From Prorocentrum cordatum (taxonomy: Eukaryota; Sar; Dinophyceae; Prorocentrales; Prorocentraceae): a DNA stretch of 64,000 nt. Below are positions 6,032 to 56,802 of this stretch, in pieces; positions within the stretch are counted from its first letter, which is position 1, and each line of letters opens with the position of its first letter. A model generated the notes under the pieces. It was not told the DNA's origin and did not search any database. It worked only from the letters and a program-made list of their open reading frames with translations. The position numbers were made by a program, and so were the translations under genes. The DNA is taken from positions 73,501 through 137,500 of the forward strand of contig CAUYUJ010017995.1 of assembly GCA_963575745.1 (NCBI GenBank), read 5' to 3'.

Positions 6032-6433
6032 ATCCGTAAGGGCCTCGCCCCCCTGCCGCCGGCCCCCTCTCTATCATCATGGGATATGCGAGAGTCGCGT
6101 CGGTGCGTCTCGGCGCTGCCTTGGCGCATCTGGGAACAGCATGCGGGGGCGGATAGGAGTCATCAGCGCATATTGAAACGTTGGCGTTATCGAAGACGCT
6201 TATAGCGAATCACCGCCACCCCCTGCCTTTTCGGAAGCGCCTACGTTGCCGAAAAATTGGGTTTGAGCTTGGCCAAGCTATCGGGCCTCGCGTTCCCCGA
6301 GTGGGTTTCGAAAGCCTTCGGGGAACACGGAGTCGGGCGAGCTATCGGACCAGGTGGTTTCTGAGCTTCCGGGCCTCCTGGAGGACGTCTTGGAGGGGTC
6401 TTGGGCCGTCTTGGAGGCTTCTGGCGGGCCTTT
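6032..6433. repeat. Dispersed repeat fragment and CTTGG minisatellite left of the retroelement
   Basis: Bases ~6190-6350 (AATCACCGCC, GGAAGCGCCTA, GAGCTTGGCCAAGCTATCGG, GTTCCCCGAGT) match ~14536-14670 on the same strand. Bases ~6380-6433 are the GTCTTGGAGG/GGGCCGTCTTGG minisatellite that resumes at 13733. The retroelement therefore split a pre-existing repeat. Confidence 0.75.
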
Positions 6434-6642
6434 TGTTTGTGGGGACCACGTGAATGCTCTTGAATAGCTCGACCTGTCGCGACTTGTAAAGTACAGTCGT
6501 CTAAAAACATTGGGTTTTTGCTAATCGCGCCCGGCCTTTGCGCGATTAGCAAAAACCCGATGGTTTTTTGCCCTTGCAGCCTGTCCATCCTTAGTGCACA
6601 TTTGCGATGGCGATCGTCCTCTGCCATCCTGGCTTCAAGCTT
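6434..6642 (+). repeat. Split direct repeat A1 (5' end)
   Basis: 209 bp, starts TGTTTGTGGGGACCACGTGA. It matches A2 (13363-13571) with two substitutions (G/A near 6490 and T/C at 6511) and no gaps. It includes the ATG at 6607 and the first 12 codons of the first ORF. Confidence 0.95.
6508..6562 (+). repeat. 23-bp inverted repeat inside A1
   Basis: Arms 6508-6530 and 6540-6562 (CGATTAGCAAAAACCCG in the right arm) with a 9-base spacer. One position is T here where A2 has C, which would leave a G-U pair in RNA. Confidence 0.9.
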
Positions 6643-7095
6643 TCACGCGCCGAGGGCCTGGCGCCACCTGGGATGGTGGCGAGCCTCTGCGCGGCCGTGT
6701 CGGCGGCGGCTCCCGGCGTGCTGCGGGAGCTGGCGCGCGGGGCGGTGGCCGAGGCGGCGCGGGTGGCGTTCGCGGGGCCGCAGGCGTGTCCGCCGTGCCC
6801 CGACTGCCACCCGGCGCCCTGCCCGGCCTGCCCGAGCTGCCCGCCGGCCCCACCTTGCCCGGCGTGCGTGTGCGCCGAGCCCGCACCGCCCCCAGTGTTG
6901 GCGGCGGCCGCGTGCGAGGCGGAGGAGCGCCCGGAGTGGTGGCTGCTCTGGCTGGTGGCGCTGGTGGTGGCGTTTTTCGTCGGCCGCTGGAGCGCGGCGT
7001 CGGAGGCCCCACGAGGCGGCGCCCTTCGCCAACATGTCGACGCGCGACGAGAGGCGCCCGGGGGCGCGGCTGCTGGTGCGGTTCGTCGGAGATGA
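6607..7095 (+). CDS. Cys-Pro-rich membrane-anchored ORF of the retroelement
   Basis: 162 residues from the ATG at 6607, inside the terminal repeat. Residues ~60-92 are a run of closely spaced cysteines in Pro-rich context (CPPCPDC, CPACPSC, CPACVC). They are followed by the acidic EAEERPE and one strong membrane segment, WWLLWLVALVVAFFVGRW, at ~117-134. Such an arrangement could bind metal or anchor a gag-like protein to membranes; this is inference. The frame is more protein-like than the two overlapping frames, which are Arg/Gly-rich. It overlaps the next ATG at 7034. Whether it is a separate protein or the N-terminus of the gag ORF joined by a frame change cannot be decided here. Confidence 0.55.
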   Translation: MAIVLCHPGFKLSRAEGLAPPGMVASLCAAVSAAAPGVLRELARGAVAEAARVAFAGPQACPPCPDCHPAPCPACPSCPPAPPCPACVCAEPAPPPVLAAAACEAEERPEWWLLWLVALVVAFFVGRWSAASEAPRGGALRQHVDARREAPGGAAAGAVRRR

Positions 7096-8609
7096 GTGGG
7101 CCCATGAGCGGGTGCTGCTCTGGCCGGTCCATCTGGACCGCAGGCACGAGTGCTGGGTCATCGAGAGCGCGGACGGCGACCGCTACGTGGAGCGTCGGGC
7201 CGACTGGGTCTGGCACGTGTCGCTGCTCCACGGCTGGCCCGAGAATTTCAGGGGCAACGGTGAGGTTCCGCGACGAGATCGACCGCGAGACGCTGCAAAA
7301 GATGGTGCTGGAGGGCCGCGAACTGGCGCGCGAGGAGCGGCGCCGACGTCGCCTCCCGTCCGCGCTGGGGGCCCACTTGGGCGAGGAGCCGACGAGCATG
7401 GTGGACTGGCACGGCGACGAGTGCGGCCTGGACATCGGCGTGCTGGAGGCCGCGCGGCGGCGCCTGCGGGGCAAGCGGCCTTTGGCCACGGGCGCTCGGG
7501 TCCCCGAGTCACCCGGGGACGAGGCTGCTAGCCGGCCCGTCCTAGCGCCCCCGCCGCTGGAAGGTGAGGAGTCGGTGCTGCTGGTGGCGGAGGTGCAGGC
7601 AGGCGGCGGCTTCCGGCTGGGCGACGAGGTGGCGCCGGGCCCCGAGGACGTCCAGGCGGGGCCGAAGGTGATCGCGCGGCGGCCCGACGGCCGGCCGGTG
7701 CTTTGCGAGCGGGTGCCAGTCTCCGAGGTCGAGAGGTGGCGGGCCCAGGAATTTGACAACGCCGGGCGGATGGCCGCTCCCTTGCCGGCCCCGTTGTCCC
7801 CGCCGCCAGCCGAGGAGGCCGGACGGCCCAGCCCCTTTGACCTCCGCGAGGCGCTGGCCGACCGGCCGCGCGAGGAGGTGGGTGGCACCCCCACGCCGCG
7901 CGAGGAGACAGCGGGGCCCGCAGCCGACGATGTGCGGACGACCGCGGTGGAGTGGAACGAACAGGGAGTCCGCTTCAAGGAATGGCGCCGAGCGGTGGGG
8001 GAGAGCAGTTCGGAGGCCCTGGACGGGTGCGAGCTGCGCGGGGCCGGCACGGCCCTCCACCTCTGCCATCGGTTCACGCAGCACGGCGGCGACCCCAAAA
8101 CGTGGATGAGCAACTTCTGCCGCGAGTACGGCGTGAGTCAGCGTGACCGGACATGGCACGAGTTGAACTGTCTGGTCACGATCTTCTGGCTGGTCGCGAC
8201 GTTCGACGCGCTGAACCTAGGCGGGCTGGCGTGTCTGGAGGTGGCGGCCCGCCGAGTGGCCCAGATCAGCGAGGCCTATCGCGTGGCTCCTGGTCAGCCG
8301 GCCGCGTTGGAGGCAGGCAGGTTCCTGACGGGGACGAGTGACCCCTTCGACGTGGTGTCGCCCGAGCTCCGCAACTTCGCGAATCGGGCGGCTCGCGACG
8401 AGTCCGAGCGGCTCGCTGCCCTGGGACGCAGTCGAGCGTTGGGGCCTGGCGGCCGCGGGGCTGGCGGTGCCGACGAGGTGACGGGCGCGCTGGAGACAGG
8501 CGGCCTGCCCCGCGCTGGGGCAGATGACGGCGGCAAGGGCGGTGGCGGTCGCGGTCGCGGGCGGAAGACCAAGCCCGGCGAGTCGACAGCCGCCGCCCAG
8601 TCGAAATGA
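7034..8609 (+). CDS. Gag-like ORF of the DIRS-type element (frame-broken)
   Basis: Opens at the ATG at 7034 (MSTRDERRPGARLLVRFVGD) and continues to FRGNG near 7258. One base change of frame follows, and then VRFRDEIDRETLQKMV runs open to the TGA at 8607-8609. The central part is a Pro/Ala/Glu-rich linker. The C-terminal third is a folded-looking segment with conserved Trp and His (TWMSNFCREYGV, WHELNCLVTIFWLVA) and then a Gly/Arg/Lys-rich tail (GGKGGGGRGRGRKTK) suited to nucleic-acid binding. I assign gag by position before RT and by this basic tail; there is no zinc knuckle. The stop overlaps the ATG of the RT frame as ATGA, which suggests coupled reinitiation. Confidence 0.6.
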
Positions 8610-10868
8610 CGGGCAAGGGGCCGGGGGTGAGGCCGCCCCCCGGCCTTGAAGCAGAGGCCACGCTCGGCGGCCAGGTCTACCCTGTCCCAGGGCTGCGCGA
8701 GCTGGACGCCGACGTCGCTTCCCGCCTTGGACGTCGCGATCGGCCACGAGTTCGGCGGCTGGCGAACGAGGGCTTGTCCAGCCTAAATTGGATGCGTGGT
8801 GCTGATCGGCGGCCGCCCCCGGCGGCGCCCAGCTGGGCCACGCGCTGCCGCGTGGCGGAGCTGCGGCGTGAGACGCAGCGACGGGCCCAACTCCTGGCGG
8901 CGAGCTGGGGCGGCCCGGACAGCGCGAAGGATTCGCAGCAGTGCTTGGCGCGCCTGCTGCGGGGCCGAGGCGGCTACGCCCAGCTGGCCCACGCGACGCT
9001 GACCCCCTTCTCCCACGCCCGGCTGTCGACCCCGGACGACCTTGCTGGGTCGCCGAGAGTTTTGAGTCTTCTGTCGGAGGCGGCGCGGATCCAGTTGAAG
9101 GATTTCGAGAGCTACATGCACGCTGCGGTCCAGTTCGACCCTATATGGACCCCATCCTGAAGCGCAAGCGGCCCGCCTACATCGGTCTGGTGAAACGCTT
9201 GCTGAAGGTCGGCCCGGTGAGGATGTCGACCACATGCCGATGCCAGGTCGGGCTCTTCTTCGTCAAGAAGAAGGGCGACCGTCAACGATTGATCTTGGAC
9301 TGTCGTCCAGCGAACCGCCTCTTCAAGAGCCCGCCGGGCGTGGACCTCGTCAGCGGGGGCGGCCTCAGCCGCGTCGAGCGGGGGTGGCCGCCGGGCGACG
9401 GCGAGTCGGGGGGGGCCAACGCGGCGCTGGCGGGCCTCGACACCTGGCTCGGAGTCAGCGACGTGAAGGACTGCTTCCACCGGCTGCTGCTGGAGGACGG
9501 CCCGGGCCTGCAGGAGTACTTCGGGCACCCTCCCCTGCGGGCCGCCGACCTGCGGCTGACGGAGCTGGACGGCGCGCGGCTGGCGCCGAGCACGCTGGTC
9601 TACCCGCTTGCGCGGGCGCTGCCGATGGGCTGGGCCTGGTCGCTGTTCTTCGCGCAGTCGGCCAACTCGTGCCGCATGCTGAAGGTGCCCTCCTTGCAGG
9701 GCGCGCCCGTCATGACTGACCGCGGGCCTCCCCTCATCCTGGATCGCCCGAGCTCCATGGGCCACTACGCCTACGTGGACAACATGGGGGTGCTGGGCAC
9801 GACCGAGGGCGCGGTCCGCCGGGGCCTCGAGGGGGCCATCTCGTCCTTCGGCGGGGTCGGCCTCGAGGTCCATGAGACCGCCGTGACGAATGAGGGTGGC
9901 GAGGCCTTGGGCGTGCAGCTCGATGGCCGCGCTGGGTGCACCCGCCCTACGCCGGCTCGGTTCTGGCGGATCCGCGGGGCGGTACAGGCCCTGCTGCGCC
10001 GTCGAGCTGTCAGCAGGCTCGAGCTGGAGATCGTGGTGGGCCACCTCACCTTCGTGGGCCTGGTGCGGCGCGAGAGCCTCAGTTGTTTCCATTGCATCTA
10101 CCGCTTCATCCAGCGGCACTACTTCGAGCGTGTTGGGCTGTGGCCCAGTGTGGCTGAGGAGCTGCGCGCCTTCCTTGGTCTGATGATCTTTTTGCAAGCT
10201 GACTGGGACGCCCGGTGGCTGCTGGGCGTCTACCAGTCGGACGCCTCCCTCGATGGCGTCGGGCTGGCCTACTCGGTGTGGGGCCCGAAGGACGTGGGGC
10301 GCGTGGGCCGCGTGACAGAGCGGTCGCGCTACCGCCTGGTTGCCGAGGCGGCGCGGCAACGCGCCGTGGAGGCCGCGGGGCTGCAGGTGCTGGCCGACGG
10401 GGCCGTCGGCCCGCCCGAGGCCCGGCCGCCAGGCATTCCCGAGGTGGAGGTAGCGCGCTGGAGTGTCGACCCCGACTTCGAGGAGGTGCCCGCGGAATTG
10501 CTGCGCCGCGATCGCTGGCGGACGGTCTTGGCCGATCGCTGGGCCTTCGACGAGGGGATCGTGCACCTCGAGGGCCGGGCTGTGGTGAAGGCCGTGGAGC
10601 GCGTGGCCAGCTCGCGCGCAGGGCGGGACGGCCGGGTCCTTCTGCTGGGGGACAACATGGCCGTGACCCTCGCCTTTTCGCGCTCGCGGGCCCGCGACTT
10701 CAAGCTGCTGACGATGATTCGGCGGACGGCCGCGTGCGCCTTCGCGCGCGGCCTGCGGTTCAGTTATAGGTGGATCCCTTCGGAGTTCAACGGCAGCGAT
10801 GAGGGGGGCAGATTGTTTGCGAGAGAATATGAAGCTAAAACATGTGTCACTCACCTCCTGCCGAAAGG
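8606..10868 (+). CDS. Reverse transcriptase - RNase H (DIRS type), frame-broken
   Basis: Starts at the ATG at 8606, overlapping the gag stop. The first frame runs to about 9140; the RT core then continues one frame over from YMDPILKRKRPAYIGL. RT blocks: VKKKGDRQRLILDCRPANRL (~9265), motif A SDVKDCFHRLLL (~9460), motif B LPMGWAWSLFFAQ (~9617) and motif C YAYVDN (~9768), where the second Asp of YxDD is Asn. RNase H follows, with Asp in YQSDASLDGVGL (~10230), Glu in HLEGRAVVKAV (~10563), Asp in LLLGDNMAV (~10640) and the DIRS-typical end RWIPSEFNGSDEGGRLF (~10768-10815). It acts in copying the element's RNA; RT of this order plus RWIPSE-type RNase H separates DIRS-like from LTR elements. The boundary with the recombinase frame near 10868 is approximate. 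Confidence 0.82.
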
Positions 10869-12428
10869 GCCGAGAGCCTCGCAAGCTGGACGGCCGAGAG
10901 CCGGGACCACACTCGAGCTTGGACATATTCCGGAGCCGTCTGAGCTCAACGCAGCGGCTCGCCAAGCCGCCGCTCCCGCCTCCCCGCGGGCCGCCGCCTC
11001 AGCCAGGGATTCGGCCGCCGAGCCGGGCGGCGCGGGCGAGGGTGCTGACGCGGGGTCTGCTGGCACAGGGCCCCGCGCCGAGCCAGCCAGCGGCGCAGGG
11101 GGCGCAGACGGGGCCGCCGGGGCTGCCGCCGGGCTGCGCGAGGGGCCGCCGGGCGGCCTCGCGGGGCCGCAGCCCGCGCCGAGCGCGGAGGCTGAGCCGA
11201 GAGGCCTGCAGTGGATTGGCGAAGCGCGCGAGCGCGGGGCCGGTGCCCCGGCCGTCCTGCCTGGAGCAGGCGCCCCAGACAGAGCGGGGCCGCGCGGCGG
11301 CCAACCCCTTCCGCGACGCCAAGGCCGCGGCCGCGACCGCCGCTTCCGCCGAGGGCGACAGCGAGAGCAGCTGCGAGGAGGAGCTGCCAAGCCGGGGGTC
11401 GGCGCAGGCCGATGCCCGCCGCGCCGCGGCGCGGGTGCGGCGCATGGCCTTCGAGGAGCTGCCGCCGGGCCAGACTTACTTGGAGGCCCACAGCGTGAAG
11501 GCGGCCACGCGGGCTCGGTACCAGACGCACGTCGGCGAGCTGGTGGCCTACGCGGACAAGATCTCGGCCCCCCTCGGCGCGGATGCCGAGGTCGACGATT
11601 GCATCGTGCGCTGGGTGAACGACGAGTTCCGCGCGGGCCGCAGGGCCTGGCGCGGCGAGAGCACGCTGGCGTCGGTGATGTTCGTGTTCCCGGCCTTCAG
11701 CTGCAACGGATGGAGGAAGCTCGTCTGGGCTTTCCGCTGCCTGAAAGGCTGGCGGACCCTCAGCCCGCCCATGAGCCGGAGGCCGCTGCCGTGGCCCGTG
11801 TGGGCCGCCCTGGCGCTGCAGCTGATGCGCATGGGGTTCGGGCTCGCCGCGGTCGCGGTCCTCGTGATGGTGGAGGCCTGCCTGCGGCCGTCGGAGCTCC
11901 TGTCGCTCCAGCGCCGGTCGCTCCTGCCTCCGGCCCGCGGCGGGCTGACCAGGTGGGGCCTTTTCCTTTTCCCCAGCCGCGCGGGCGTGGCGAGGAGCAA
12001 GACAGGGGAGGCGGACGACACGGTGGTGATGGACTCGACTCGGACGCCCTGGCTGGACCACGTGTTCGAGCATCTCAGCCAGGGGCCGGGCGAAGAGCGG
12101 ATCTTTCCTTGGGACTACAGCCAGTTCTACCAGATGTTTTGTGCAGGCTGCCTCGGCCCTCGGCTACAAGATGGTGCCGTGCCAGGGCCGCCGCAGCGGG
12201 ATCTCGATCGATCGAGCTCACCGCGAGCGCAGCCAAGACGAGTGCATGAAGAGAGGCCGATGGCGAGCGGCCAAGAGCGTGGCCCGCTACGAGAAGGCGG
12301 GCAGGCTCAACGACGCCTGGCGGGAGCTCAGCTCGGAGCAGCAGGCCCACGCCCTCGACTGCGAGCGCCTGCTCGAGGAGTGCGTCGCGCGTGGGCGCCC
12401 GCTGCTGGCGCCGGCTCTGAGGCCTTGA
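10868..12428 (+). CDS. Tyrosine recombinase (integrase) of the DIRS-type element, frame-broken
   Basis: After a Pro/Ala-rich linker, a core-binding region (YLEAHSVKAATRARYQTHVGEL, ~11480) leads into the catalytic domain. The first Arg lies in VEACLRPSELLSL (~11870-11910). About 12140 the frame changes, and the second half (ALGYKMVPC, GRRSGISIDRA, MKRGRWRAAKSVARYEKAG) ends at the TGA at 12426-12428. RGRW followed by SVARY gives the nucleophile Tyr. The usual HxxR box is represented by the Arg of GRRSG, with the His not evident. This enzyme would integrate a circular cDNA by site-specific recombination, which matches the split direct repeats. The one-base break inside the catalytic domain implies this copy is inactive unless it is a sequencing error. 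Confidence 0.78.
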
Positions 12429-13144
12429 CGCCTTTCTTCGCCGAGCTGTTCAGCGGCGCTGGCCGAGTGGCCGCGGCGGCGCGGCGCGTCGGGTACTGCT
12501 CGCGGGAGTGGGGCATCAAGGCCGGCCCCGCGGGCAACGTGCTGCGCCAGTGCGTGGAGGCCGGGCTGTGCGCGAGCATCCTCGCCGGCCTGGTGCTGGC
12601 CGTGATGCTGGCCCCGCCCTGCACCTCTTTCTCCGTGGTGCAGAATGTCAACGTGCCGCTGCGCAGTAGAGAGTTTCCTCGAAGCTTGCCGGGTCTTCCT
12701 GAGGCGCAGCGAGAGAAAGTGAATTTGGGCAATGCGTGCTTGGACCTTTCGCTCCGTGTGATCAGACTTTGCATCAGAATGCGCGTCCCCTTCTGTCTCG
12801 AGCATCCTCACAGCAGCTACGTCTGGCACGATCCCTCTTTGAAATCTTTGTTGGCTCGCGCCATTAGCCGCGCTGTCGTTGTGAATCGCTGTAGTTTCGG
12901 GTCTCCCCATAGAAAGGCCACTAGACTGGTTTTCGGAGGCGCCGATCTCGACCTGGGGTTCCTGGATCACCCAGGCACGGTCCTCTGCACAGGTCGGCGC
13001 GGTTTCTGCTCTTTCTCTGGTAAGAAGCACGTAATTTTGGAGGGGCGGAGCGCGCGCGAAGCCGCGGCCTACCCGCCGAAACTTGCCGCCGCCCTGGCTC
13101 GTGCTTTGTTGTCGCCGATTTGGACTGAAAGGAGCTGGATATGA
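12425..13144 (+). CDS. C5-cytosine DNA methyltransferase-like domain at the 3' end of the retroelement
   Basis: About 240 residues in the frame of the recombinase first half, reached again after the TGA at 12426, and ending at 13142-13144. Motif I is FAELFSGAGRVAAAARRVG. A motif IV-like APPCTSFSVV places Cys after Pro-Pro, as in the catalytic PC of C5 enzymes. A motif VI-like PFCLEHPHSS has Glu followed by His-Pro instead of Asn-Val. SFGSPHRKATRLVF resembles the Arg/Lys-Thr segment of phage-type C5 enzymes. YPPKLAAALARAL resembles motif X. It lacks a clear target-recognition domain, so it could be minimal or degenerate. No ATG starts the frame, so production by frameshift from the recombinase ORF is likely. 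It could act on element or host DNA; this is inference. Confidence 0.68.
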   Translation: MTPFFAELFSGAGRVAAAARRVGYCSREWGIKAGPAGNVLRQCVEAGLCASILAGLVLAVMLAPPCTSFSVVQNVNVPLRSREFPRSLPGLPEAQREKVNLGNACLDLSLRVIRLCIRMRVPFCLEHPHSSYVWHDPSLKSLLARAISRAVVVNRCSFGSPHRKATRLVFGGADLDLGFLDHPGTVLCTGRRGFCSFSGKKHVILEGRSAREAAAYPPKLAAALARALLSPIWTERSWI

Positions 13145-13224
13145 TTCTCGTCCTTTTTTCGCTGAGGCCTGCCGGCCCCCCGCCCCCCCTGGGCTGTGAA
13201 CTTCGGCCTGGGTCCTAATGGTTT
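13145..13224. other. Non-coding tail before repeat B1
   Basis: 80 bases between the methyltransferase stop and the B1 repeat; no feature seen. Confidence 0.4.
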
Positions 13225-13364
13225 GGGGTGTTGAGCAGTCTGTCAATTCGAATTGTATCGCGAGCTGGCCCCACAGTCGGGCTGGTTCCAACCGTCAGCA
13301 GTAGCAAGGCTCTGGTCCAGTCTCGCAACAGAAACCGTTCGCCGCCAAGAGCAAAAAGAGCATG
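13225..13364 (+). repeat. Split direct repeat B1
   Basis: 140 bp beginning GGGGTGTTGAGCAGTCTGTC. It matches B2 (13593-13732) at offset 368 with two substitutions. It shares its last two bases (TG) with the start of A2. Confidence 0.95.
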
Positions 13365-13571
13365 TTTGTGGGGACCACGTGAATGCTCTTGAATAGCTCG
13401 ACCTGTCGCGACTTGTAAAATACAGTCGTCTAAAAACATCGGGTTTTTGCTAATCGCGCCCGGCCTTTGCGCGATTAGCAAAAACCCGATGGTTTTTTGC
13501 CCTTGCAGCCTGTCCATCCTTAGTGCACATTTGCGATGGCGATCGTCCTCTGCCATCCTGGCTTCAAGCTT
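13363..13571 (+). repeat. Split direct repeat A2
   Basis: Second copy of A1, offset 6929, joined directly to B1. It contains a perfect 23-bp inverted repeat (13437-13459 with 13469-13491). Confidence 0.95.
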
Positions 13572-13592
13572 CCCTCCCACGCCTCCCTTCTG

Positions 13593-13732
13593 GGGGTGTT
13601 GAGCAGTCTGTCCATTCGAATTGTATCGCGAGCTGGCCCCACAGTCGGGCTGGTTCCAACCCTCAGCAGTAGCAAGGCTCTGGTCCAGTCTCGCAACAGA
13701 AACCGTTCGCCGCCAAGAGCAAAAAGAGCATG
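13593..13732 (+). repeat. Split direct repeat B2 (3' end)
   Basis: Second copy of B1; ends AAAAAGAGCATG at the junction with the flanking minisatellite. A 21-base spacer separates it from A2. Confidence 0.95.
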
Positions 13733-14395
13733 GACAGTCTAAGGCCATCTTCAGGCCATTTGAGGTCGTCTTGGGTGCATCTTGGGGCCATCTTCGCCGT
13801 CTTGGAGGCCTTCTTGGCAGTCTTGGGGGCATCTTGGAGGCCATCTTGGCCGTCTTGGAGGCCATCTCGGGCGTCTTGAGGGCCTCTTGGGCCGTCTTGG
13901 GGTCTTGTTGGGGCCCTCTCGGGGGCCTCCTGGCTTGTCATGAGGCCACCTTGGAGGCCTCTTGGGCGCTCTTGGGGCGATGTTGGGGGCTTCTTGGGCC
14001 GTCTTGGGCTTTTTGAGAGCTGAAAAGAGGAATAATAAGAAGAAGAAAAAGAAAACTATTCCCAAATCCTTCAAACACCAGAGGAACATCAATGCTTTTG
14101 GCCTCTTCGGGCCTTCCTGGTGGAGCTCTTGGAGGCCTCTGGGGGCCCTCTTGGGTAGTCTAAGGCCATCTTGGAGCCATCTTGGGCCGTCTTGGAGGCT
14201 TCTTGGACGAACTTGAAGGCATCTTGGACTCTCTCGGGCCGTCTTGGAAGCCATCTTGGACCATCTTTGACGACTTGGAGGCCATCTTGGGCCATCTTGG
14301 AGGCCATCTTTGGCGAACGTGACCATCGTAGAGGCCATCTTGAGCCGTCATGGAGAATGTTTTTGGAGGTTGGGGTGGTTTAGGCTGCCTTGTGC
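13733..14395. repeat. CTTGG minisatellite (12-15 bp units)
   Basis: Imperfect units of the type GCCATCTTGG, GCCGTCTTGGAG and GGCCTCTTGGGC. At ~14025-14110 it is interrupted by an A-rich module (CTATTCCCAAATCCTTCAAA and AACATCAATG, then TTTTGGCCTCTTC) that recurs near 61115 and 61450. It is the interrupted right half of the target of the retroelement. The reverse-strand ORFs (KTAKMASKMAPRRP style) are repeat translations. Confidence 0.85.
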
Positions 14396-14700
14396 GGCCT
14401 TTCGGGTGGCCGGCGGGACGGGCCGAAGCCCCATGGGGAGTTCTTTTGGAAACGAACCAAGACCAAAAGCGAAAGGGTTCAGCACACCAGGCACCCCTGC
14501 GATGAACCAACAGGGGTCAACGGGGCGGCGGATCGAAGACGCCTACGGCGAATCACCGCCGCCCCCTGCGCTTGTGGAAGCGCCTATGTGTCCGACAGCT
14601 GGGCTAGAGCTTGGCCAAGCTATCGGACCACGTGTTCCCCGAGTCGGTTTGGAAAGGTTTCGGGGAACGCGGGGGGGAGCAAGGGGAGGAGGAGGAGAAG
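14396..14700. repeat. Dispersed repeat core (GGCCGGCGGGAC ... CAGGCACCCC)
   Basis: TTTCGGGTGGCCGGCGGGAC, GAGTTCTTTTGG, CACCAGGCACCCC and CAACAGGGG-GCGGCGGATCGA recur at ~61800-61930 and in a diverged form at ~34350-34510. The following GGAAGCGCCTA and GCTTGGCCAAGCTATCGG segment matches 6190-6350. Together with the adjoining minisatellite this forms a composite repeat of unknown origin. Confidence 0.7.
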
Positions 14701-35929: not shown

Positions 35930-36370
35930 GCTGTGAAACTGTCGCCACTTTCGAGGCCTGCTGGGGGGCTCAGCATAGAGGGTAATCGCGGCAGATTCAA
36001 ATTAGACCTCGCCATCCCTGGGGGGCTGCGATCTGTGAAACTGTCGCCACTTTCGAGGCCTGCTGGGGGGTCCAGCATAGAGGGTAATCGCGGCAGATCC
36101 AAATTAGACCTCGCCCTCCCTGGGGGGCTGCGATCTGTGAAACTGTCGCCACTTTCGAGGCCTGCTGGGGGGCCCAGCACAGTGAGGGCCACGCGCGGAT
36201 TCAAATTAGACCTCGCCATCCCTGGGGGGCTGCGATCTGCGAAACTGCCGCCATTTTCGAGGCCTGCTGGGGGGCCCAGCACAGTGAGGGCCACGGGCAG
36301 ATTCAAATGAGACCTCGCCGTCCCTGCGGGGCTGCGATCTGTGAACCTGTCGCCACTTTCGAGGCCTGCT
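35930..36370. repeat. ~100-bp satellite, array 1
   Basis: Units of 100-102 bp built on GGGGGGCTGCGATCTGTGAA, ACTGTCGCCACTTTCGAGGC, CTGCTGGGGGG, a variable CAGCATAGAGGGTAATCGCGG or CAGCACAGTGAGGGCCACG piece, and ATTCAAATTAGACCTCGCCA. About four units. It is preceded by the hairpin phrase CCCAACCCTCCTTGGTTGGG. Confidence 0.95.
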
Positions 36371-36690
36371 GTGATCCCCGTTTTCGAAGTGGCTAGGAGT
36401 GCTCAGGAATTGTAAATCATCAGCTTTATCAAGCCCTTTTCCTGTAGCCAGTGTCCTGCGAGTCTCCCGAATTCCGTCTGCAGACATATGTAACCCTCGC
36501 TCCGTCATCGCCCCCTTATAAAGTATCCTAAACTATTTGCGCCCCGCTTTTGCGCAGGGGTTGGGTACGTCGCCAGGGTAATTCCCAACCCTCCTTGGTT
36601 GGGTATTCGTTTTGAATAGAGCAGTGTGGTCGCGTCCTTCCTCCTCCCGCCTCCCGCCTCTTTCCTGCCTCTTTCTGTCTTGCCTGCGGG
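36371..36690. repeat. Higher-order spacer of the satellite
   Basis: From GATCCCCGTTTTCGAAGTGG, through TCCCGAATTCCGTCTG, CATATGTAACCCTCGCTCCG, CCCTTATAAAGTATCC, GGGGTTGGGTACGTCGCCAG and the CCCAACC/GGTTGGG hairpin, to GAATAGAGCAGTGTGGTC. Full copies also at ~38033-38350 and ~38921-39200; partial copies at ~35815, 40955 and 43800. Confidence 0.9.
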
Positions 36691-38035
36691 GGGCTGCGAT
36701 CTGTGAAACTGTCGCCACTTTCGAGGCCTGCTGGGGGGCTCAGCATAGAGGGTAATCGCGGCAGATTCAAATTAGACCTCGCCATCCCTGGGGGGCTGCG
36801 ATCTGTGAATGTCTGCCAGCCGAGGCGAAAACTGTCGCCACTTTCGAGGCCTGCTGGGGGGTCCAGCATAGAGGGTAATCGCGGCAGATCCAAATTAGAC
36901 CTCGCCATCCCTGGGGGGCTGCGATCTGTGAAACTGTCGCCACTTTCGAGGCCTGCTGGGGGGTCCAGCATAGAGGGTAATCGCGGCAGATCCAAATTAG
37001 ACCTCGCCCTCCCTGGGGGGCTGCGATCTGTGAAACTGTCGCCACTTTCGAGGCCTGCTGGGGGGCCCAGCACAGAGGGCCACGCGGCAGATTCAAATTA
37101 GACCTCGCCATCCCTGGGGGGCTGCGATCTGTGAAACTGTCGCCACTTTCGAGGCCTGCTGGGGGGCCCAGCACAGTGACGCCACGGCGGATTCAAATTA
37201 GACCTCGCCATCCCTGGGGGGCTGCGATCTGTGAAACTGTCGCCACTTTCGAGGCCTGCTGGGGGGCCCAGCACAGTGACGCCACGGGCGGATTCAAATT
37301 AGACCTCGCCATCCCTGGGGGGCTGCGATCTGTGAAACTGTCGCCACTTTCGAGGCCTGCTGGGGGGCCCAGCACAGTGACGCCACGGCGGATTCAAAAT
37401 TAGACCTCGCCATCCCTGGGGGGCTGCGATCTGTGAAACTGTCGCCACTTTCGAGGCCTGCTGGGGGGCCCAGCACAGTGACGCCACGCGGATTCAAATT
37501 AGACCTCGCCATCCCTGGGGGGCTGCGATCTGTGAAACTGTCGCCACTTTCGAGGCCTGCTGGGGGGCCCAGCACAGTGACGCCACGGGCGGATTCAAAT
37601 TAGACCTCGCCATCCCTGGGGGGCTGCGATCTGTGAAACTGTCGCCACTTTCGAGGCCTGCTGGGGGGCCCAGCACAGTGACGCCACGGGCGATTCAAAT
37701 TAGACCTCGCCATCCCTGGGGGGCTGCGATCTGTGAAACTGTCGCCACTTTCGAGGCCTGCTGGGGGGCCCAGCACAGTGACGCCACGGCAGATTCAAAT
37801 TAGACCTCGCCATCCCTGGGGGGCTGCGATCTGTGAAACTGTCGCCACTTTCGAGGCCTGCTGGGGGGCCCAGCACAGTGACGCCACACGCGATTCAAAT
37901 TAGACCTCGCCATCCCTGGGGGGCTGCGATCTGTGAAACTGTCGCCACTTTCGAGGCCTGCTGGGGGGCCCAGCACAGTGACGCCACGCGCGGACCCAAA
38001 TTAGACCTCGCCATCCCTGGGGGGCTGCGATCTGA
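36691..38035. repeat. ~100-bp satellite, array 2
   Basis: About 13 units of 99-102 bp, mostly the CAGCACAGTGACGCCACG subtype. One unit carries an 18-base insertion (CTGCCAGCCGAGGCG near 36813). Neighbouring units differ by a few bases, mainly in the GCCACG(C/G)GCGG stretch. Confidence 0.95.
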
Positions 38036-38925
38036 GATCCCCGCTTTCGAAGTGGCTAGGGTTGCTCAGGGATTGTAACGAATCAGCTTTATCTAGTCCT
38101 TGTCCTGTAACCAGTGTCCTGTGAGTCTCCCGAATTCCGTCTGGAGGCATATGTAACCCTCGCTCCGTCATCGCCCCCCTTTATAAAGTATCCTAAACTA
38201 TTTGCGCCCCGCTTTTGCGCAGGGGTTGGGTACGTCGCCAGGGTAATTTCTTTTTTCCCAACCCTCCTTGGTTGGGTATTCGTTTTGAATAGAGCAGTAT
38301 GGTCGCGTCCTTCCTCCTCCCGCCTCCCGCCTCTTTCCTGCCTCTTTCTGTCTTGCCTGCGGGGGGCTGCGATCTGTGAAACTGTCGCCAGTTTCGAGGC
38401 CTGCTGGGGGGTCCAGCATAGAGGGTAATCGCGGCAGATCCAAATTAGACCTCGCCATTCCTGGGGGGCTGCGATCTGTGAAACTGTCGCCACTTTCGAG
38501 GCCTGCTGGGGGGCTCAGCATAGAGGGTAATCGCGGCAGATTCAAATTAGACCTCGCCATCCCTGGGGGGGGGGGCTGCGATCTGTGAAACTGTCGCCAC
38601 TTTCGAGGCCTGCTGGGGGGTCCAGCATAGAGGGTAATCGCGGCAGATCCAAATTAGACCTCGCCCTCCCTGGGGGGCTGCGATCTGTGAAACTGTCGCC
38701 ACTTTCGAGGCCTGCTGGGGGGCCCAGCACAGTGAGGGCCACGCGCGGATTCAAATTAGACCTCGCCATCCCTGGGGGGCTGCGATCTGCGAAACTGCCG
38801 CCATTTTCGAGGCCTGCTGGGGGGCCCAGCACAGTGAGGGCCACGGGCAGATTCAAATGAGACCTCGCCGTCCCTGCGGGGCTGCGATCTGTGAACCTGT
38901 CGCCACTTTCGAGGCCTGCTGTGAT
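38036..38925. repeat. Satellite spacer and array 3
   Basis: Spacer copy at 38036-38350 followed by about six units (38360-38925). The order of unit subtypes largely repeats array 1 and its spacer, consistent with duplication of a ~900-bp block. Confidence 0.9.
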
Positions 38926-40440
38926 CACCGTTTTCGAAGTGGCTAGGAGTGCTCAGGAATTGTAAACCATCAGCTTTATCAAGCCCTTTTCCTGTAGCCA
39001 GTGTCCGGCGAGTCTCCCGAATTCCGTCTGCAGACATATGTAACCCTCGCTCCGTCATCGCCCCCTTATAAAATATCCTAAAGTATTTGCGCCCCGCTTT
39101 TGCGCAGGGGTTGGGTACGTCGCCAGGGTAATTTCCCAACCCTCCTGTGTTGGGCACTCGTTTTGAATAGAGCACTGTGGTGTGGTCTCCACCTTCCTCC
39201 TCCTCCCGCCTCCTCTCTCCCCTCTTCGTCTCTTCTCTTGCTCTTACCTCCTCATCCTCTTCTCTTCGCTCCTCCTCTCCTCGCTTGCTTTTTACCTATC
39301 TTTACCTCGCCATCTCTGGGGCGCTGCGATCTGTGAAACTGTCGCCACTTTCGAGGGCTGCTGGGGTGGCCAGCGAAATGACGCCCCACGGGGACTCAGA
39401 TTAGACCTCGCCATCCCTGGGGGGCTGCGATCTGTGAAACTGTCGCCACTTTCGAGGGCTGCTGGGGTGGCCAGCGGAGTGACGCCCCACGGGGACTCAG
39501 ATCAGACCTCGCCATCCGTGGGGGGCTGCGATCTGTGAGACTGTCGCCACTTTCGAGGGCTGCTGGGGTGGCCAGCGCAGACGCCCTACACTCAGATTAG
39601 ACCTCGCCATCCGGGGGGGGCTGCGATCTGTGAAACTGTCGCCACTTTCGAGGGCTGCTGGGGTGGCCAGCGGAGTGACGCCCTACGGGGACTCAGATTA
39701 GACCTCGCCATCCCTGGGGGGCTGCGATCTGTGAAACTGTCGCCACTTTCGAGGGCTGCTGGGGGGCCAGCGGAGTGACCCCTACGGGGACTCAGATTAG
39801 ACCTCGCCATCCCTGGGGGGCTGCGATCTGTGAAACTGTCGCCACTTTCGAGGGCTGCTGGGGGGGCCAGCGGAGTGACGCCCCACGGGGACTCAGATTA
39901 GACCTCGCCATCCCTGGGGGGCTGCGATCTGTGAAACTGTCGCCACTTTCGAGGGCTGCTGGGGGGCCAGCGGAGTGACGCCTACGGGGACTCAGATTAG
40001 ACCTCGCCATCCCTGGGGGGCTGCGATCTGTGAAACTGTCGCCACTTTCGAGGGCTGCTGGGGTGGCCAGCGCAGTGACGCCCTACGGGGACTCAGATTA
40101 GACCTCGCCATCCGTGGGGGGGCTGCGATCTGTGAGACTGTCGCCACTTTCGAGGGCTGCTGGGGTGGCCAGCGGAGTGACGCCCTACGGGGACTCAGAA
40201 TAGACCTCGCCATCCCCGGGGGGGCTGCGATCTGTGAAACTGTCGCCACTTTCGAGGGCTGCTGGGGTGGCCAGCGGAGTGACGCCCCACAGGGACTCAG
40301 ATTAGACCTCGCCATCTCTGGGGGGCTGCGATCTGCGAACCTGTCGCCACTTTCGAGGGGTGCTGGGGTGGCCAGCGGAGTGACGTCATACGGGGATTCA
40401 GATTAGACTTCGCCATCCCTGGAGGGCTGCGATCTGTGAA
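38926..40440. repeat. Satellite spacer and array 4 (second subfamily)
   Basis: Spacer at 38926-39190, a CTC-rich patch, then about 11 units of ~100 bp in which the variable part is GGCCAGCGGAGTGACGCC and CTACGGGGACTCAGATTAGA, and GAGGGCTGCTGGGG replaces GAGGCCTGCTGGGG. Confidence 0.95.
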
Positions 40441-41085
40441 AATGTGTCATTTCCCGCGGGCCGCCCGCAGACCTGGCGGCGCGCCTGCGAACGTTCAGCT
40501 CCCGCACTAAATGTGCAGGGATGAGGCGGAGAAGCTAGCGGGCGAGCTACGTCTCGCTCGCTTCTTGCACTTACTATAAGCAGGTTTGAGCCTGTGGAAC
40601 GCTGCGGCGACATGGCGCAGGCAGCGCTCAGTGTTTAGCGTGTACCTGAAAACGCGGCGCTTTTCTGTCTCCTCCCGCCACCTTCATTGTCGTCCTATTC
40701 CCCGCTTCGCCTGCTCCATGCATGCTGCTGCTGCCGCGATGGCCTTTCGCCCCCCCCATTCCATCCTCCTCCTGCCCCTCGTTCCCGTCCCCGTTCTTCT
40801 TCGAGCCTGGGGCCTCGATCCTCGTTCTTTCGATCGTCGTCCTGTGAGTCGTGCAACGCATGCGCGTCCCATGTAGATTGCGCAACAAACCACCGTGTCT
40901 ACATTGTCGTTGTTCCTGCTAATGTTGGCCTACTCCTCTTGCCACTTGATGCACATGGGTTGGGTACGTCGCAGGGTAATTGTTTTTTCCCAACCCTCCT
41001 TGGTTGGGTATTCGTTTTGAATAGAGCAGTGTGGTCTCCACTCTTTCCTTCCTTCTTCCTCCCTCCCTCCCTGCCTCTTCCTGTC
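40441..41085. other. Unique-looking insert between satellite arrays
   Basis: No gene recognised. A C/T-rich patch (40680-40800), then the satellite spacer end (GGTTGGGTACGTCGCAGGG, ~40960) and the CCCAACC/GGTTGGG hairpin. Confidence 0.45.
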
Positions 41086-42665
41086 TTGCCTGCGGGGGGC
41101 TGCGATCTGTGAAACTGTCGCCATTTTCGAGGCCTGCTGGGGGGCTCAGCACAGTGAGGGCGACGCGCAGATTCAAATTAGACCTCGCCATCCCTGGGGG
41201 GCTGCGATCTGTGAAACTGTCGCCATTTTCGAGGCCTGCTGGGGGGCCCAGCACAGTGAGGGCCACGCGCGATTCAAATTAGACCTCGCCATCCCTGGGG
41301 GGCTGCGATCTGTGAAACTGTCGCCATTTTCGAGGCCTGCTGTGGGGCCCAGCACAGTGAGGGCGACGCGCAGATTCAAATTAGACCTCGCCATCCCTGG
41401 GGGGCTGCGATCTGTGAAACTGTCGCCATTTTCGAGGCCTGCTGGGGGGCCCAGCACAGTGAGGGCCACGCGCAGATTCAAACTAGACCTCGCCATCCCT
41501 GGGGGGCTGCGATCTGTGAAACTGTCGCCATTTTCGAGGCCTGCTGGGGGGCCCAGCACAGTGAGGGCGACGCGCGGATTCAAATTAGACCTCGCCATCC
41601 CTGGGGGGCTGCGATCTGTGAAACTGTCGCCATTTTCGAGGCCTGCTGGGGGGCCCAGCACAGTGAGGGCCACGCGCGGATTCAAATTAGACCTCGCCAT
41701 CCCTGGGGGGCTGCGATCTGTGAAACTGTCGCCACTTTCGAGGCCTGCTGGGGGGCCCAGCACAGTGACGCCACGCGCGGATTCAAATTAGACCTCGCCA
41801 TCCCTGGGGGGCTGCGATCTGTGAAACTGTCGCCACTTTCGAGGCCTGCTGGGGGGCCCAGCACAGTGAGGGCCACGCGCGGATTCAAATTAGACCTCGC
41901 CATCCCTGGGGGGCTGCGATCTGTGAAACTGTCGCCACTTTCGAGGCCTGCTGGGGGGCCCAGCACAGTGACGCCACGCGCGGACCCAAATTAGACCTCG
42001 CCATCCCTGGGGGGCTGCGATCTGTGAAACTGTCGCCACTTTCGAGGCCTGCTGGGGGGCCCAGCACAGTGACGCCACGGCGGACCCAAATTAGACCTCG
42101 CCATCCCTGGGGGGCTGCGATCTGTGAAACTGTCGCCACTTTCGAGGCCTGCTGGGGGGCCAGCACAGTGACGCCACGCGCGGACCCAAATTAGACCTCG
42201 CCATCCCTGGGGGGCTGCGATGACTTAGACCTCGCCATCCCTGGGGGGCTGCGATCTGTGAAACTGTCGCTATTTTCGAGGCCTGCTGGGGGGGCCAGCA
42301 CAGTAACGCCACGGGCAGACTCAAATCAGACCTCGCCATCCCTGTGGGGCTGCGATCTGTGAAACTGTCGCCACTTTCGAAGCATGCTGGGGGGCGCAGC
42401 ACAGTGATGCCACGCGCGGACCCACATTAGACCTCGCCATCCCTGGGGGGCTGCGATCTGTCAAACTGTCGCCACTTTCGAGGCCTGCTGGGGGGCTCAG
42501 CACAGTGACGTCACGCGCTGACCCAAATTGGACCTCGCTATCCCTGGGGGGCTGGGATCTGCGAAACTGCCGCCACTTTCGAGGTCTGCTGGGGGGCTCA
42601 GCACAGTGACGCCACGCGCGGACCCAAATTAGACCTCGCCATCCCTGGGGGGCTGCGATCTGCGA
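41086..42665. repeat. ~100-bp satellite, array 5
   Basis: About 15 units of the CAGCACAGTGAGGGC(G/C)ACG and CAGCACAGTGACGCCACG subtypes. Units at the start read GCCATTTTCGAGG and those later GCCACTTTCGAGG. One truncated unit lies near 42215. Confidence 0.95.
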
Positions 42666-43720
42666 AGCTGTCGCCACTTTCGAGGGCTGCTGGTGGGTCC
42701 TGCGGAGCGGGGCACCGCGCGGACCTGAGCGGGACCTCGCAGTCCCTGAGGGGCTGTGATCTGCGAAGCTGTCGCTATTTTCGAGGGCTGCTGGTGGGTC
42801 CTGCGGAGTGAGGCACGGCGCAGATCTGAGCGGGACCTCGCCGTCCCTGCGGGGCTGCGATCTGCGAAACGACTTTCGCTGCTGGTGGGTCCTGCGGACT
42901 TTCGATCTGCGCTCGCCACTTTCGAGTGCTGGTGGGTCCTGCGGAGTGAGGCACCGCGCGGACCTGAGCGGGACCTCGCCGTCCCTGGGGGGCTGCGATC
43001 TGCGAAACTGTCGCCACTTTCGAGGGCTGCTGGTGGGTCCTGCGGAGTGAGGCACCGCGCGGACCTGAGCGGGACCTCGCCGTCCCTGGGAGGCTGCGAT
43101 CTGCGAAACTGTCGCCACTTTCGATGGCTGCTGGTGGGTCCTGCGGAGTGAGGCGCGGCGCGGACCTGAGCGGGACCTCGCCGTCCCTGGGGGGCTGCGA
43201 TCTGCGAACCTGTCGCCACTTTCGAGGGCTGCTGGTGGGTCCTGCGGAGTGAGGCACCGCGCGGATCTGAGCGGGACCTCGCCGTCCCTGCGGGGCTGCG
43301 ATCTGCGAAATTGTCGCCACTTTCGAGGGCTGCTGGTGGGTCCTGCGGAAGCGCACGAGGGCTGCTGCGGACTGAGCGGAACCTCGCCGTCCCTGGGGGG
43401 CTGCGATCTGCGAAGCTGTCGCCACTTTCGAGGGCTGCTGGTGGGTCCTGCGGAGTGAGGCACCGCGCGGACCTGAGCGGGACCTCGTCGTCCCTGGGGG
43501 GCTGCGATCTGTGAAACTGTCGCCACTTTCGAGCGTTGCTGGTGGGTCCTGCGGAGTGAGGCACCGCGCGGACCTGAGCGGGACCTCGCCGTCCCTGCGG
43601 GGCTGCGATCTGCGAAACTGTCGCCACTTTCGAGGGCTGCTGGTGGGTCCAGCGGAGCGAGGCACCAGGCAGATCTGAGCGGGACATCGCAATCCTTGGG
43701 GGGCTGCGAGCCTCACGAAT
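42666..43720. repeat. ~100-bp satellite, array 6 (third subfamily)
   Basis: About 10 units in which the variable part is GGTGGGTCCTGCGGAGTGAG and GCACCGCGCGGACCTGAGCG, with GACCTCGCCGTCCCTG. Includes a scrambled stretch of short units (42865-42930). The long reverse-strand ORFs over it are repeat translations. Confidence 0.95.
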
Positions 43721-45105: not shown

Positions 45106-46856
45106 AGACATCTGGTGGTGATGATGGTAATCATGTTGATGATGATGGCGATGGTGATGGTCTTGATGATGGTGATGGGCTCGATGGTGATGGTGTTGAT
45201 GATGCTGCTGCTGATGATGATGTTGACCATGCTGCTGATGATGATGATGCTGGTGGTGATGATGAAATTAATGATCGCACTGAAGATGTAGCTGATGCAG
45301 ATGTTGATGATGCTGGTGTTGATGATGATGATGATTGCGATGATGATGATGTTGAGGTTGAGTGTGATGAGTAAGTTGATGATGGTGATGTTGTTACTGA
45401 TGCTAAAACTGATGGTAACGATGATGACGATGCTGGTGATGATTATGCTGATACTGCTGATGCTGAGGCCGATAATTCTGCTGCTGCTGGTGCTGATGAT
45501 GATGGTGGTGGTGACGATGATATGGACGATTGCGATGATGGCGGTGATGCTGATGCTGGTGATGATGATAACGACGATGTTAATGATGCTGGCGATGAGG
45601 CTGGCGATTATTATGCTGATGCAGCTGATGATGATGGCGATAGCGATGGCGATGATACTGATGATGATGGTGGTGACGATCATGATCACGATGACGATAT
45701 TCCTGCTGCTGGTGATGATGATGCTGATTAGGGTGATGATGCTGATGCTGATTCTGATTTCGATGATGATGATTGTGAGGACGATGATGGTAGTGGTCGT
45801 GATGATGCTGGTGATGCTGTTGCGGCTGATGATGGTGATTATTATGATGCTGATGATGCTGATGATGCTGGTGATGCTGATTGTGTAGATGGTTATGGTG
45901 CGGATGATGATGCTGATGAGGATGATGCTGATACTGATGATGATCAGGAGGAGCAGGAGGGGGACGAGGATCGTGGCGCTAATGCTGAAGCTGCTGCTGC
46001 TGATGATGTTGGTGATCATGACCATGCTGGCGATGCCGATGTTGCTGCTGGTGGTGACGATGTAGCTGCTGATGGCGATGGCGGCGATGCTGGCGATGAT
46101 GATGTCGATGGTGATGAAGATGAGGATCATGACGACGGTTGCTTTGACGATGATGGTGAGGATGACGAGGTGGACAAGGAAGGAGGACTGCGGCACCACC
46201 TCGATCGGCGCGCAGCGACACCATGCGCATGAGAAATAGCGAGATGAGACGTAGCAGAATGGGATATGATCAGGGCAAGGGGTGATTGTGATGCTGATGC
46301 GGATTATGTTTATGATGATGGCGATGATGATGCTGCTGCTGCGGATGATGATGACGATTCTGATGACGATGTTGCTGTTGTTGATGATGATGATGCTGCT
46401 GATGATGCTGATGATGATGCTGCTGATGATGATGATGCCGACGATAACGATGTCGATGCTGGTGCCGTTGACGATGCTGATGCTGATGATGGTGCTGGTG
46501 CTGGTGCTGCCAATGGTGATGCTACTGATGATGATGGGTGGTGGTGGTGACTGTGATTTGTGATGGTGATGATGGTGAGTATGATGATGCTGATGCTGCT
46601 GATGACGATGATGACGATGCTGCTGATGATGATGATGCATACTATTACTAGTGCTATGGTCGTAATGTTGCAGATGATGAGGATGATTATGATGGTGATG
46701 ATGCTGATGATGATGTTGTTGATGATGATGGTATGCTGATGACGGTGATGATGATGATGCTGATGGTGTGGACGATGATGGTGATGATGCTGATGATGAT
46801 GTCGCTGATGCTGATGCTGCTTATGATGCTGATGATGACGATGATGGTGATGCTGT

Positions 46857-46901
<45 letters not shown>

Positions 46902-46913
46902 CGACGATGATGC

Positions 46914-46946
<33 letters not shown>

Positions 46947-46960: not shown

Positions 46961-47630
46961 GTGAGGATAAGGAGGAGGGAGGAGTAGGAGAGAGGAATGA
47001 GGGAGAGCCCGAGGAACTTCGAGAAACAGTAGGCATAACAGGAAGGGGGATGACTAACGCCTACTAAGTCTTGTTTTCTTCTTCACTGCTCGAGTCTGGG
47101 ATGATTTGGGGTGGTTTTGGGAGGTGGAGTGGGCGGAAGTGGAGGCGGAGGATGATGATGAGGACAAGGAGCATGAGAAGGCTGCTCTCCGAGACTCCAG
47201 AGCCGTCAGCTGGAGGAGTATGCGTACGAAGATGCAGACGGAGATTGAGATGCATGTGCAATACGAGAGTAACGAGACTGGAGGAGGAGACGGGGGAGGA
47301 GGGGGAGGAGGGAGAATCGGATCTGATCGACTCGGCAGGAGGAAGCGTTAAGTGCCGCAGCGCCGTTTGCTTCTCCCCTTCGGGGGGGGGGCACAAGTGT
47401 GGAGCCTTACACTCAACAACAGTGGTGCCAGTATTGATATCCCGCCCTGCCTAGCGGACGAGGAGGGAGGAGGGAGAACGGAGGAGGTAGGAGGTAAGAG
47501 GGAGGAGGAGGGAGCGAGGGAGCGAGGGAGCGAGGAGCGAGGGAGCGAGGGAGCGAGGGAGCGATGGAGCGAGGAAACGAGGGAGCGAGGCAGGAGGAGA
47601 ATGAGGAGAAGGAGACGGAGGAAGAGGATG
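46961..47630. other. Spacer between triplet arrays
   Basis: Purine-rich. 47070-47340 is less repetitive (GGAGGAGTATGCGTACGAAG and GAGATGCATGTGCAATACGA) but no domain is recognised in any frame. 47500-47590 is a GAGCGAGG repeat of 8 bases. Confidence 0.45.
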
Positions 47631-47663
47631 ATGATGATGATGACGATGATGATGATGAGGATG

Positions 47664-47720
<57 letters not shown>

Positions 47721-47751
47721 CTGCTGCTGCTGCTGATGATGATGATGATGC

Positions 47752-47783
<32 letters not shown>

Positions 47784-47790
47784 CTGCTGC

Positions 47791-47826
<36 letters not shown>

Positions 47827-48659
47827 CGAGGAGGAGGAGGAGGAGGAGGAGGAGGAGGAGGAGAGACCAACGATGAACGAACGAGGACGATGAGGATGCG
47901 GAGGCGGAGGGGGAGGAGGAGGCCGAAGGAAGAAGAGGGTGAACTACGGCCGAGGGACTGGACCTGATGGTGCTGATGATGATGGTGTTGATGACGATGC
48001 TGGTTATGATGTTGATACTCATGGGGGTTGTGGTGGAGGCGATGGCTTGATGGTGGTGATGATGCTGCTGATGACCTGGGCGATTACGATGATGACGATG
48101 TTGACGAGGATCATGACGATGACGATGGCAACTGTGGTGATTACCATGACGTTTATGATCGGGATGCCAACGATGTTGCTGATGCTGCTGCTGATGATGA
48201 TGCTGGTGCTGGTGATGGTGGTGGTGATGACGACGACAACGATGACGATGCCGATGGTGGCCATGATGATGCTGATGCGGTTGATGAGACTGTTGATGAT
48301 GGCGAAGCTGATGCCGATGATGATGATGATGGTGGGGATGTCGGTGAGTATGATGCCGATGGTGTTGGTGGTAATGCTGATGCTGCGGATGATGCTGATG
48401 ATGATTGTGATGATGATGCCGATGATGACGATGGTGATGCTGATGCTGATGATGATACTCATGATGCTGATGATGATGCTGATGGTGGTGATGATGATGC
48501 TGATGATCATGTTGGTGGTGAATATGATGCTGCTGATGCTGATGATGATGCTGATGCTGACGATGTGGATGCTGCTGCTGATGATGCTGACCATGATGGT
48601 GATGCTGCTGCTGATGATGATGCTGATGATGCTGATGATGGGGATGATGATGATGATGC

Positions 48660-48705
<46 letters not shown>

Positions 48706-48725
48706 GATGATGATGATGCTGATGC

Positions 48726-48779
<54 letters not shown>

Positions 48780-48812
48780 CGATGTTGATCGATGATGCGG
48801 CTGATGATGCTG
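47631..48812. repeat. GAT/GCT triplet array 2
   Basis: Same composition as array 1, with pure (GAT)n runs at 47665-47720 and 48740-48780, a GAG run near 47828-47865, and mixed GAT/GCT/GGT between. Confidence 0.9.
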
Positions 48813-49050
48813 TGATGATTGATGTACTGATGCGGCTGATTCTGGTACTGTGCGGAGTAGGGAGGGGGAGGCGGAGTAGGACAAGAAATCGGAAGAGGAA
48901 GAAGGAGGATGATATGAAACACGAAGGGAGATAGTCAGAAGGATACGGAAAAGGAGGAGGAATGAAGAGGAGGAGGAGGAGATAGATAGAGCGGCCTAGG
49001 GGGGCGGAGCAGTGCGTTCGGCCGCAAGGATGGGCCCCCGCCGTCGCCGC

Positions 49051-55963: not shown

Positions 55964-56002
<39 letters not shown>

Positions 56003-56802
56003 CTGATGATGATGCTGATGATGATGATGATGATGATGATGCTGATGATGATGATGCTGATGATGATGATGATGCTGATGATGATGCTGCTGCGGATGAT
56101 GATGCTGATGATGCTGGTGATGCTGATGAGGATGCTGCTGATGAGGATGATGATGCTGATGATGATAATGATGGCGTTGATTTTGAGACCGGTAATACAT
56201 ATGATGTCGATGATGATGGTGATGATGATGCTGCGGATCCTGATGACGATGCTGCTGCTGCTGTTGCTGATGCTGATGGTGATGGTGATGATGATACTCA
56301 TGGTGATCTTGATGACAGTAGTGATAGTGATGATGATGATGATGATGATGATAATGATGATGATGATGATGCCGATGCTGATGCTGATGCGGATGATGAG
56401 GATGCTGATTGCGATGATGATTGCGACTGTGATGATGATGATGATGTTTATGATGATGCATGATTGTGTTGATGTTGAGGCCAATGATCGATATGACACC
56501 GATGATACCGATGACGATGATGCTGCTGATTCTGATGACGATGATGCTGATGCTGATGCTGATGCTGATGCTGATGGTGATGGTGATGCTGATTATGATG
56601 ATGAGTATCATGGTGATCTTGATGATGGTAGTGGTAGTGCTGATGATGCTGATGCGGATGCCGATGCGGATGCTGATGCTGATGATGAGGATGCTGATTG
56701 CGATTATGATTACGACAGCGATGCTGATGTTGATGATGGTACTGATGATGCTGATGCTGATGGTGATGCTGATGATGCTGATGCTTATTATTGTCATGCT
56801 GC

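Follow-up and report, generated by a model that had tools for sequence, protein, structure and literature searches.

A decayed DIRS-order retrotransposon of Prorocentrum cordatum with a putative C5-type methyltransferase as the probable last domain of Pol

Repeats and coding parts of the element

Analysis of a stretch of 64,000 nucleotides from the dinoflagellate Prorocentrum cordatum (contig CAUYUJ010017995.1, positions 73,501 to 137,500 of the forward strand; hereafter the window) reveals a retrotransposon between positions 6434 and 13732. In our reading, which we hold to be reasonably probable, it is a decayed copy of the DIRS order whose Pol would comprise reverse transcriptase and RNase H (RT/RH), a long spacer and a C5-methyltransferase-like domain (MT), with the tyrosine recombinase (YR) encoded over this spacer in the +1 frame, as seen in relatives. 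The features of the window copy are listed below; related loci are designated L009 to L036.

6434–13732, + strand: whole element, a decayed DIRS-order copy of 7,299 nt with split direct repeats at both ends
6434–6642, + strand: A1 repeat, left end, starting TGTTTGTGGGGACCA; 209 nt, 99% identical to A2
7425–8606, + strand: conserved part of the first open reading frame (ORF), within ORF 6525–8609; gag-like by position only
9052–10848, + strand: RT/RH part of Pol, with YVDN and the RNase H residues D-E-D-D
11432–12139, + strand: N-half of YR, frame 2; it shares its frame with the C-half in L009 and L010
12140–12149, + strand: 10-nt gap separating the two YR pieces; L009, L010 and L011 have 9 nt here
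12150–12428, + strand: catalytic C-half of YR including the stop; its frame differs from that of the N-half in the window copy
12425–13144, + strand: MT, 239 aa plus stop, read as the last domain of Pol from model and fold matches and from its frame in relatives
13225–13364, + strand: B1 repeat, 140 nt, 99% identical to B2
13363–13571, + strand: A2 repeat, 209 nt, 99% identical to A1
13593–13732, + strand: B2 repeat, right end, 140 nt, 99% identical to B1

The repeats, which a preliminary description of this DNA had already proposed, are confirmed for both the A and the B pair and follow the order A1, coding region, B1, A2, B2, with B1 and A2 overlapping by 2 nt. Because A1/A2 and B1/B2 diverge by only about 1%, the insertion looks young. 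The closest copies, L009, L010 and L011, are about 96–97% identical to the window element; the four repeats could be matched directly in these three (with B2 displaced in L011) and were also found by self-comparison in L018, L021, L024, L025, L026 and L027. The left end TG[T/G]TTGTGGGGACCA is kept in most copies compared. For nine copies both ends could be compared, some of the right ends only approximately because they were set from self-alignment, and no target-site duplication is evident there. No inverted terminal repeats were found, and the sole inverted pair reported (65 nt, 85%) lies inside the A copies. The family thus combines YR, RT with RNase H and insertion without target-site duplication, as in the DIRS order. 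In L011 (oriented positions 7477–8201) B2 lies further downstream than in the near-identical duplicate L010, so that the right ends of the two assembled copies differ. The flanks of the window element (6250–6433 and 13733–14310) contain degenerate CTTGG-rich repeats and positions 6258–6341 resemble 14600–14683 at 82%, which places the element in or beside a repeat array.

The RT/RH, YR and MT coding stretches are present as previously described, and the MT motifs (ELFSGAGR, PPCTSFS, LEHP, YPPKLAAAL) read as quoted. No Pfam match was obtained for the first ORF. YVDN and the RNase H residues D400/E510/D537/D586 are invariant across four lineages; RVT_1 is matched solely in the relative L030 (E 0.0038, under the curated cut-off), and a sequence search of PDB with RT gave no match. 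In the YR of the window the tyrosine of RYEK is retained and the histidine that is invariant in the YR alignment is replaced by arginine. Fold prediction of the L009 YR gives the YR fold, and the PDB sequence search with YR returned just two unrelated rows. The window ORF 10718–13144 joins the YR N-half to MT and bypasses the catalytic C-half. This ORF is misleading, since the 10 nt instead of 9 between the YR parts shift both overlapping frames.

Recurrence of the element and the frame of the methyltransferase domain

The whole genome assembly (4.13 Gb, 21,875 contigs) was searched with the MT stretch, which yielded 43 matches at the DNA level and at least 153 at the protein level, the latter after scoring 150 among 11,187 first-look candidates; the true number of MT-bearing relatives is probably large. 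Among the matches listed, MT lies in an open frame of at least 1000 codons, stop-free within the match, in 36 rows. Twenty loci were fetched around the closer matches, 17 of them distinct (the assembly duplicates L010/L011, L015/L016 and L022/L023 remain in counts of 20). All loci were found through MT and contain it by construction, and the copies are related to each other, so that counts are not independent. YR lies upstream of MT in the same order as in the window in 18 of the 20 loci, RT in 15 and the first ORF in 16; part of the first ORF is inverted in L015/L016 and part of RT in L026. The eight distant loci (L029–L036), whose MT is 34–44% identical to that of the window, all retain the order RT, YR, MT, and seven have a direct repeat pair just 3' of MT (not seen in L031). 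A further search at the protein level, queried with the MT region of L029, matched none of 1110 candidates. The frameshifted state of the window copy and its MT without a Pfam match might suggest a chance neighbour or a misreading, to which we give hardly any weight: MT recurs in order inside the A-B-A-B repeats with a clear fold prediction, and this explanation was rejected.

The proposal that the relatives would show MT fused to the recombinase in the same order stands for the order only. In L009 and L010 both YR halves share one frame and MT lies at -1 to it, as does the MT piece nearest YR in 14 of the 18 close loci having both (exceptions L012, L014, L018 and L028). Each of the eight distant loci has MT in frame with RT/RH (with the 3' part of RT/RH at L032 and L036) and YR at +1, and in L029, L030, L031, L033, L034 and L035 a single ORF of 1338–1656 aa bears RT sequence together with MT, the RT of L035 being complete except for its start. 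The assignment of MT to Pol and not to the recombinase is supported by these frames. The initial view of MT as a domain following the recombinase in one protein does not hold, the catalytic YR C-half being in another frame. A recombinase that ends in MT would accord with the window ORF 10718–13144 and with the frame shared in L014 and L018; this explanation, contradicted by the frames in the other relatives, was rejected as very improbable. A further case in its favour is P0013, a 661-aa protein from a public contig, in which a relative of MT is followed by a RIGEAKNPGP stretch and then by YR-like sequence. This looks like another element type joining MT and YR in the opposite order, the YR having been identified by eye.

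Alternatively, MT could be a separate small protein outside Pol, translated downstream of the recombinase through reinitiation or a frameshift. In the window lineage, the TGA that ends YR frequently shares bases with an NTG codon with which MT begins (TTGA, GTGA, CTGA, ATGA; 12425–12428 and equivalents in L009–L028), a possible start-stop coupling, and the predominant -1 position of MT would suit it as well. On the other hand, 5 of 17 YR–MT junctions (L017, L018, L020, L024 and L025) read GCGA without such a stop, L027 is also stop-free there, and the Pol frame stays open across YR; we regard a separate protein as quite improbable.

Probable overprinting of the recombinase on Pol

The openness of the Pol frame was assessed by shuffling the synonymous codons of the YR ORF 1000 times and counting stops in the other frames. 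Across YR, the Pol frame of L029–L032 contains no stop where 6.4–8.8 are expected (0/1000 shuffles as low in each), whereas the third frame is at expectation (14, 18, 17 and 22 stops observed vs. 14.7, 16.4, 17.9 and 19.9 expected). No stop occurs either in the Pol frame of L033 and L035 (5/1000 and 0/1000 shuffles as low) or, over a shorter domain, in that of L034 (16/1000). The window lineage, comprising the window and seven loci whose YR piece is long, all related copies, has a single stop (in L010) against about 24 expected, and is the fairer set because it was fetched on MT similarity alone. RT and MT control stretches at the same offset are mostly near expectation. Within the overlap, L029 and L032 share 70% identity in the YR peptide, 37% in the Pol frame and 38% in the third frame. 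As the YR peptide is conserved and the Pol-frame peptide no more so than that of the third frame, it is the openness of the Pol frame and not its sequence that seems to be selected, which suggests that read-through from RT/RH to MT matters. Selection would then have kept the Pol frame stop-free across YR while the spacer peptide went unconserved, as the computation supports.

Several observations weigh against a Pol that reads from RT to MT across the recombinase, among them the frames of L014 and L018 and the protein P0013 described above. Of the eight distant loci, six had been picked because their open frames are long. Within the close family, which is decayed, MT agrees in frame with the RT piece next to YR at just 5 of 15 loci (L009, L017, L018, L026 and L027), no better than chance, and the rule that MT goes with Pol rests for this reason on the distant loci. 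The broken copy L036 has two Pol-frame stops vs. 4.9 expected (89/1000 shuffles as low). Finally, three controls are themselves low, namely L029 RT (20 stops vs. 31.3, 4/1000), L029 MT (7 vs. 11.2, 48/1000) and L032 MT (5 vs. 10.3, 17/1000).

Identity of the methyltransferase domain and relation to known elements

Fold prediction of 12425–13144 gave a C5-methyltransferase fold, in agreement with the preliminary description, and MT has the PPC and E-x-P/V motifs of C5 cytosine methyltransferases. Pfam C5 models match neither the window MT nor any of the eight members of an MT alignment (E ≤ 10) nor the Pol proteins of L029–L031. The phage methyltransferase profile phrog_757 matches the MT of L030 with E 7.2e-9, and the window MT reaches only E 0.074, which counts against a phage-type assignment. 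Foldseek places DNMT3A/3B in the top PDB rows and aligns MT with a Tetraselmis virus 1 protein at TM 0.59/0.64; VIA-align scores are 13.5 for M.HhaI and at most 12.1 for DNMT3, too close to be decisive by themselves. The PDB sequence search gave no match with the eight-member alignment and three C5 rows at E 0.57–1.8 with a second alignment, NCBIfam gave one weak unrelated row, and a search of viral contigs with that second alignment gave four pattern stretches with no relative confirmed. On sequence and model comparisons MT resembles compact phage and viral C5 enzymes, its activity being predicted; the phrog_757 and Tetraselmis virus 1 enzymes share the small C5 fold and are, unlike MT, not borne by retrotransposons.

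A DIRS element with a cytosine methyltransferase in Pol is already known from Symbiodinium. According to PMC5890265 (de Mendoza et al., 2018), SymbioDIRS-Dnmt3 has the plan A-coding-B-A-B, a DNMT in the Pol ORF and a separate YR ORF; the elements were identified with PF00145, their enzymes perform de novo CG methylation in yeast, self-methylation is proposed by the authors, and Symbiodinium genomes are described as mostly CG-methylated. These Dnmt3 cases are repeated in PMC12344493 and reviewed in PMC6338049. The earlier statement that captured cytosine methyltransferases belong to other retroelement classes was thus incomplete. The present family agrees with SymbioDIRS-Dnmt3 in the repeat plan, in the Pol ORF shared by MT and RT and in the separate YR ORF (here from the frames of relatives, not from the broken window copy). 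It differs in its MT, phage-like in resemblance and devoid of a Pfam C5 match where theirs is of PF00145/Dnmt3 type; a full overlap of YR by Pol, as in our relatives, is not mentioned in the available part of their text. The window element could itself be a SymbioDIRS-Dnmt3 member whose MT is a fast-evolving Dnmt3 missed by profile searches, for which the common plan and the top Foldseek rows speak. We consider this unlikely, given the missing Pfam C5 matches where PF00145 had retrieved the published elements, the phrog_757 matches and, for what little it decides, the M.HhaI score. The suggestion of a distinct lineage survives in another sense, that of an apparently different enzyme with no detectable Pfam C5 match.

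Ngaro, PAT and VIPER share the split direct repeats A1 ... B1 A2 B2 (PMC6681497). Ngaro and VIPER are devoid of a methyltransferase and usually lack ORF overlap, according to PMC3266345, whereas here MT is present and relatives have a long overlap; the Ngaro label given before fits poorly, and a plain Ngaro was rejected. DIRS1-like elements, as the same paper describes them, have a Pol of RT, RH and methyltransferase, and their YR ORF can overlap Pol, long overlaps being possible. They possess inverted terminal repeats, a methyltransferase known as adenine-type and the catalytic part of YR in a non-overlapping 3' end; the present family has, in contrast, direct split repeats and a C5-type MT (by fold and PPC motif) downstream of YR. 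Among the titles and abstract openings listed by searches of the open-access literature, none reported dinoflagellate DIRS elements with a methyltransferase other than Dnmt3.

Against distant copies, dN/dS is 0.12–0.36 for MT, 0.25–0.41 for RT, 0.23–0.77 for YR and 0.16–0.49 for the first ORF; the low MT values partly reflect a high dS (0.9–2.1, one row saturated) and not a dN below that of RT. Among close copies, the values (MT 0.7–0.95, RT 0.7–1) are as expected from decay after insertion. MT distances track the divergence of the first ORF, of RT and of YR (Mantel r 0.83, 0.76, 0.78 and 0.67; 0/999 permutations each), and the RT, YR and MT trees show no supported conflict. Together, these comparisons support a single old acquisition of MT, before the sampled lineages diverged. 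GC3 is lowest in MT (0.61–0.74; 12425–13141 and equivalents) vs. 0.74–0.94 in other domains of the same copies. CpG depletion is absent from nine copies (observed/expected 1.02–1.10; rest of the window 0.87), a further point on the opposing side that is not decisive because only SymbioLINE elements were CG-depleted in PMC5890265; in three close copies CpG transitions are in mild excess (49/1711 sites vs. 56/3064 other C/G sites). Elsewhere in the window, long arrays of a tandem unit of about 101 nt occupy 35931–43709, and long degenerate TGA/GAT/ATGATG simple repeats lie at 45119–46946, 47627–48824 and 55964–56855; GC skew is strong in the surroundings of the first.

By analogy with known YR retrotransposons, Pol would make the cDNA, the split A/B repeats would allow a circular double-stranded copy, and YR would insert this circle without target duplication. 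MT tethered to RT would most likely methylate cytosines in this cDNA or in the circle, and a new copy so methylated may resemble the methylated DNA of the host or be tolerated. We further propose, tentatively and as plausible rather than probable, that an ancestral DIRS-order element captured a phage- or virus-type C5 MT apart from the Dnmt3 captures and gave rise to an abundant family, in which YR would be overprinted on a disposable Pol spacer kept open only to tether MT to RT. DIRS elements reported without DNMT may carry such an MT as well, because Pfam does not detect it, and surveys based on PF00145 would undercount transposon-borne methyltransferases. A retroelement equipped with a DNA methyltransferase of its own inverts the usual silencing story, and a second, sequence-divergent and abundant dinoflagellate case would suggest that methylation of new copies is a solution arrived at more than once.
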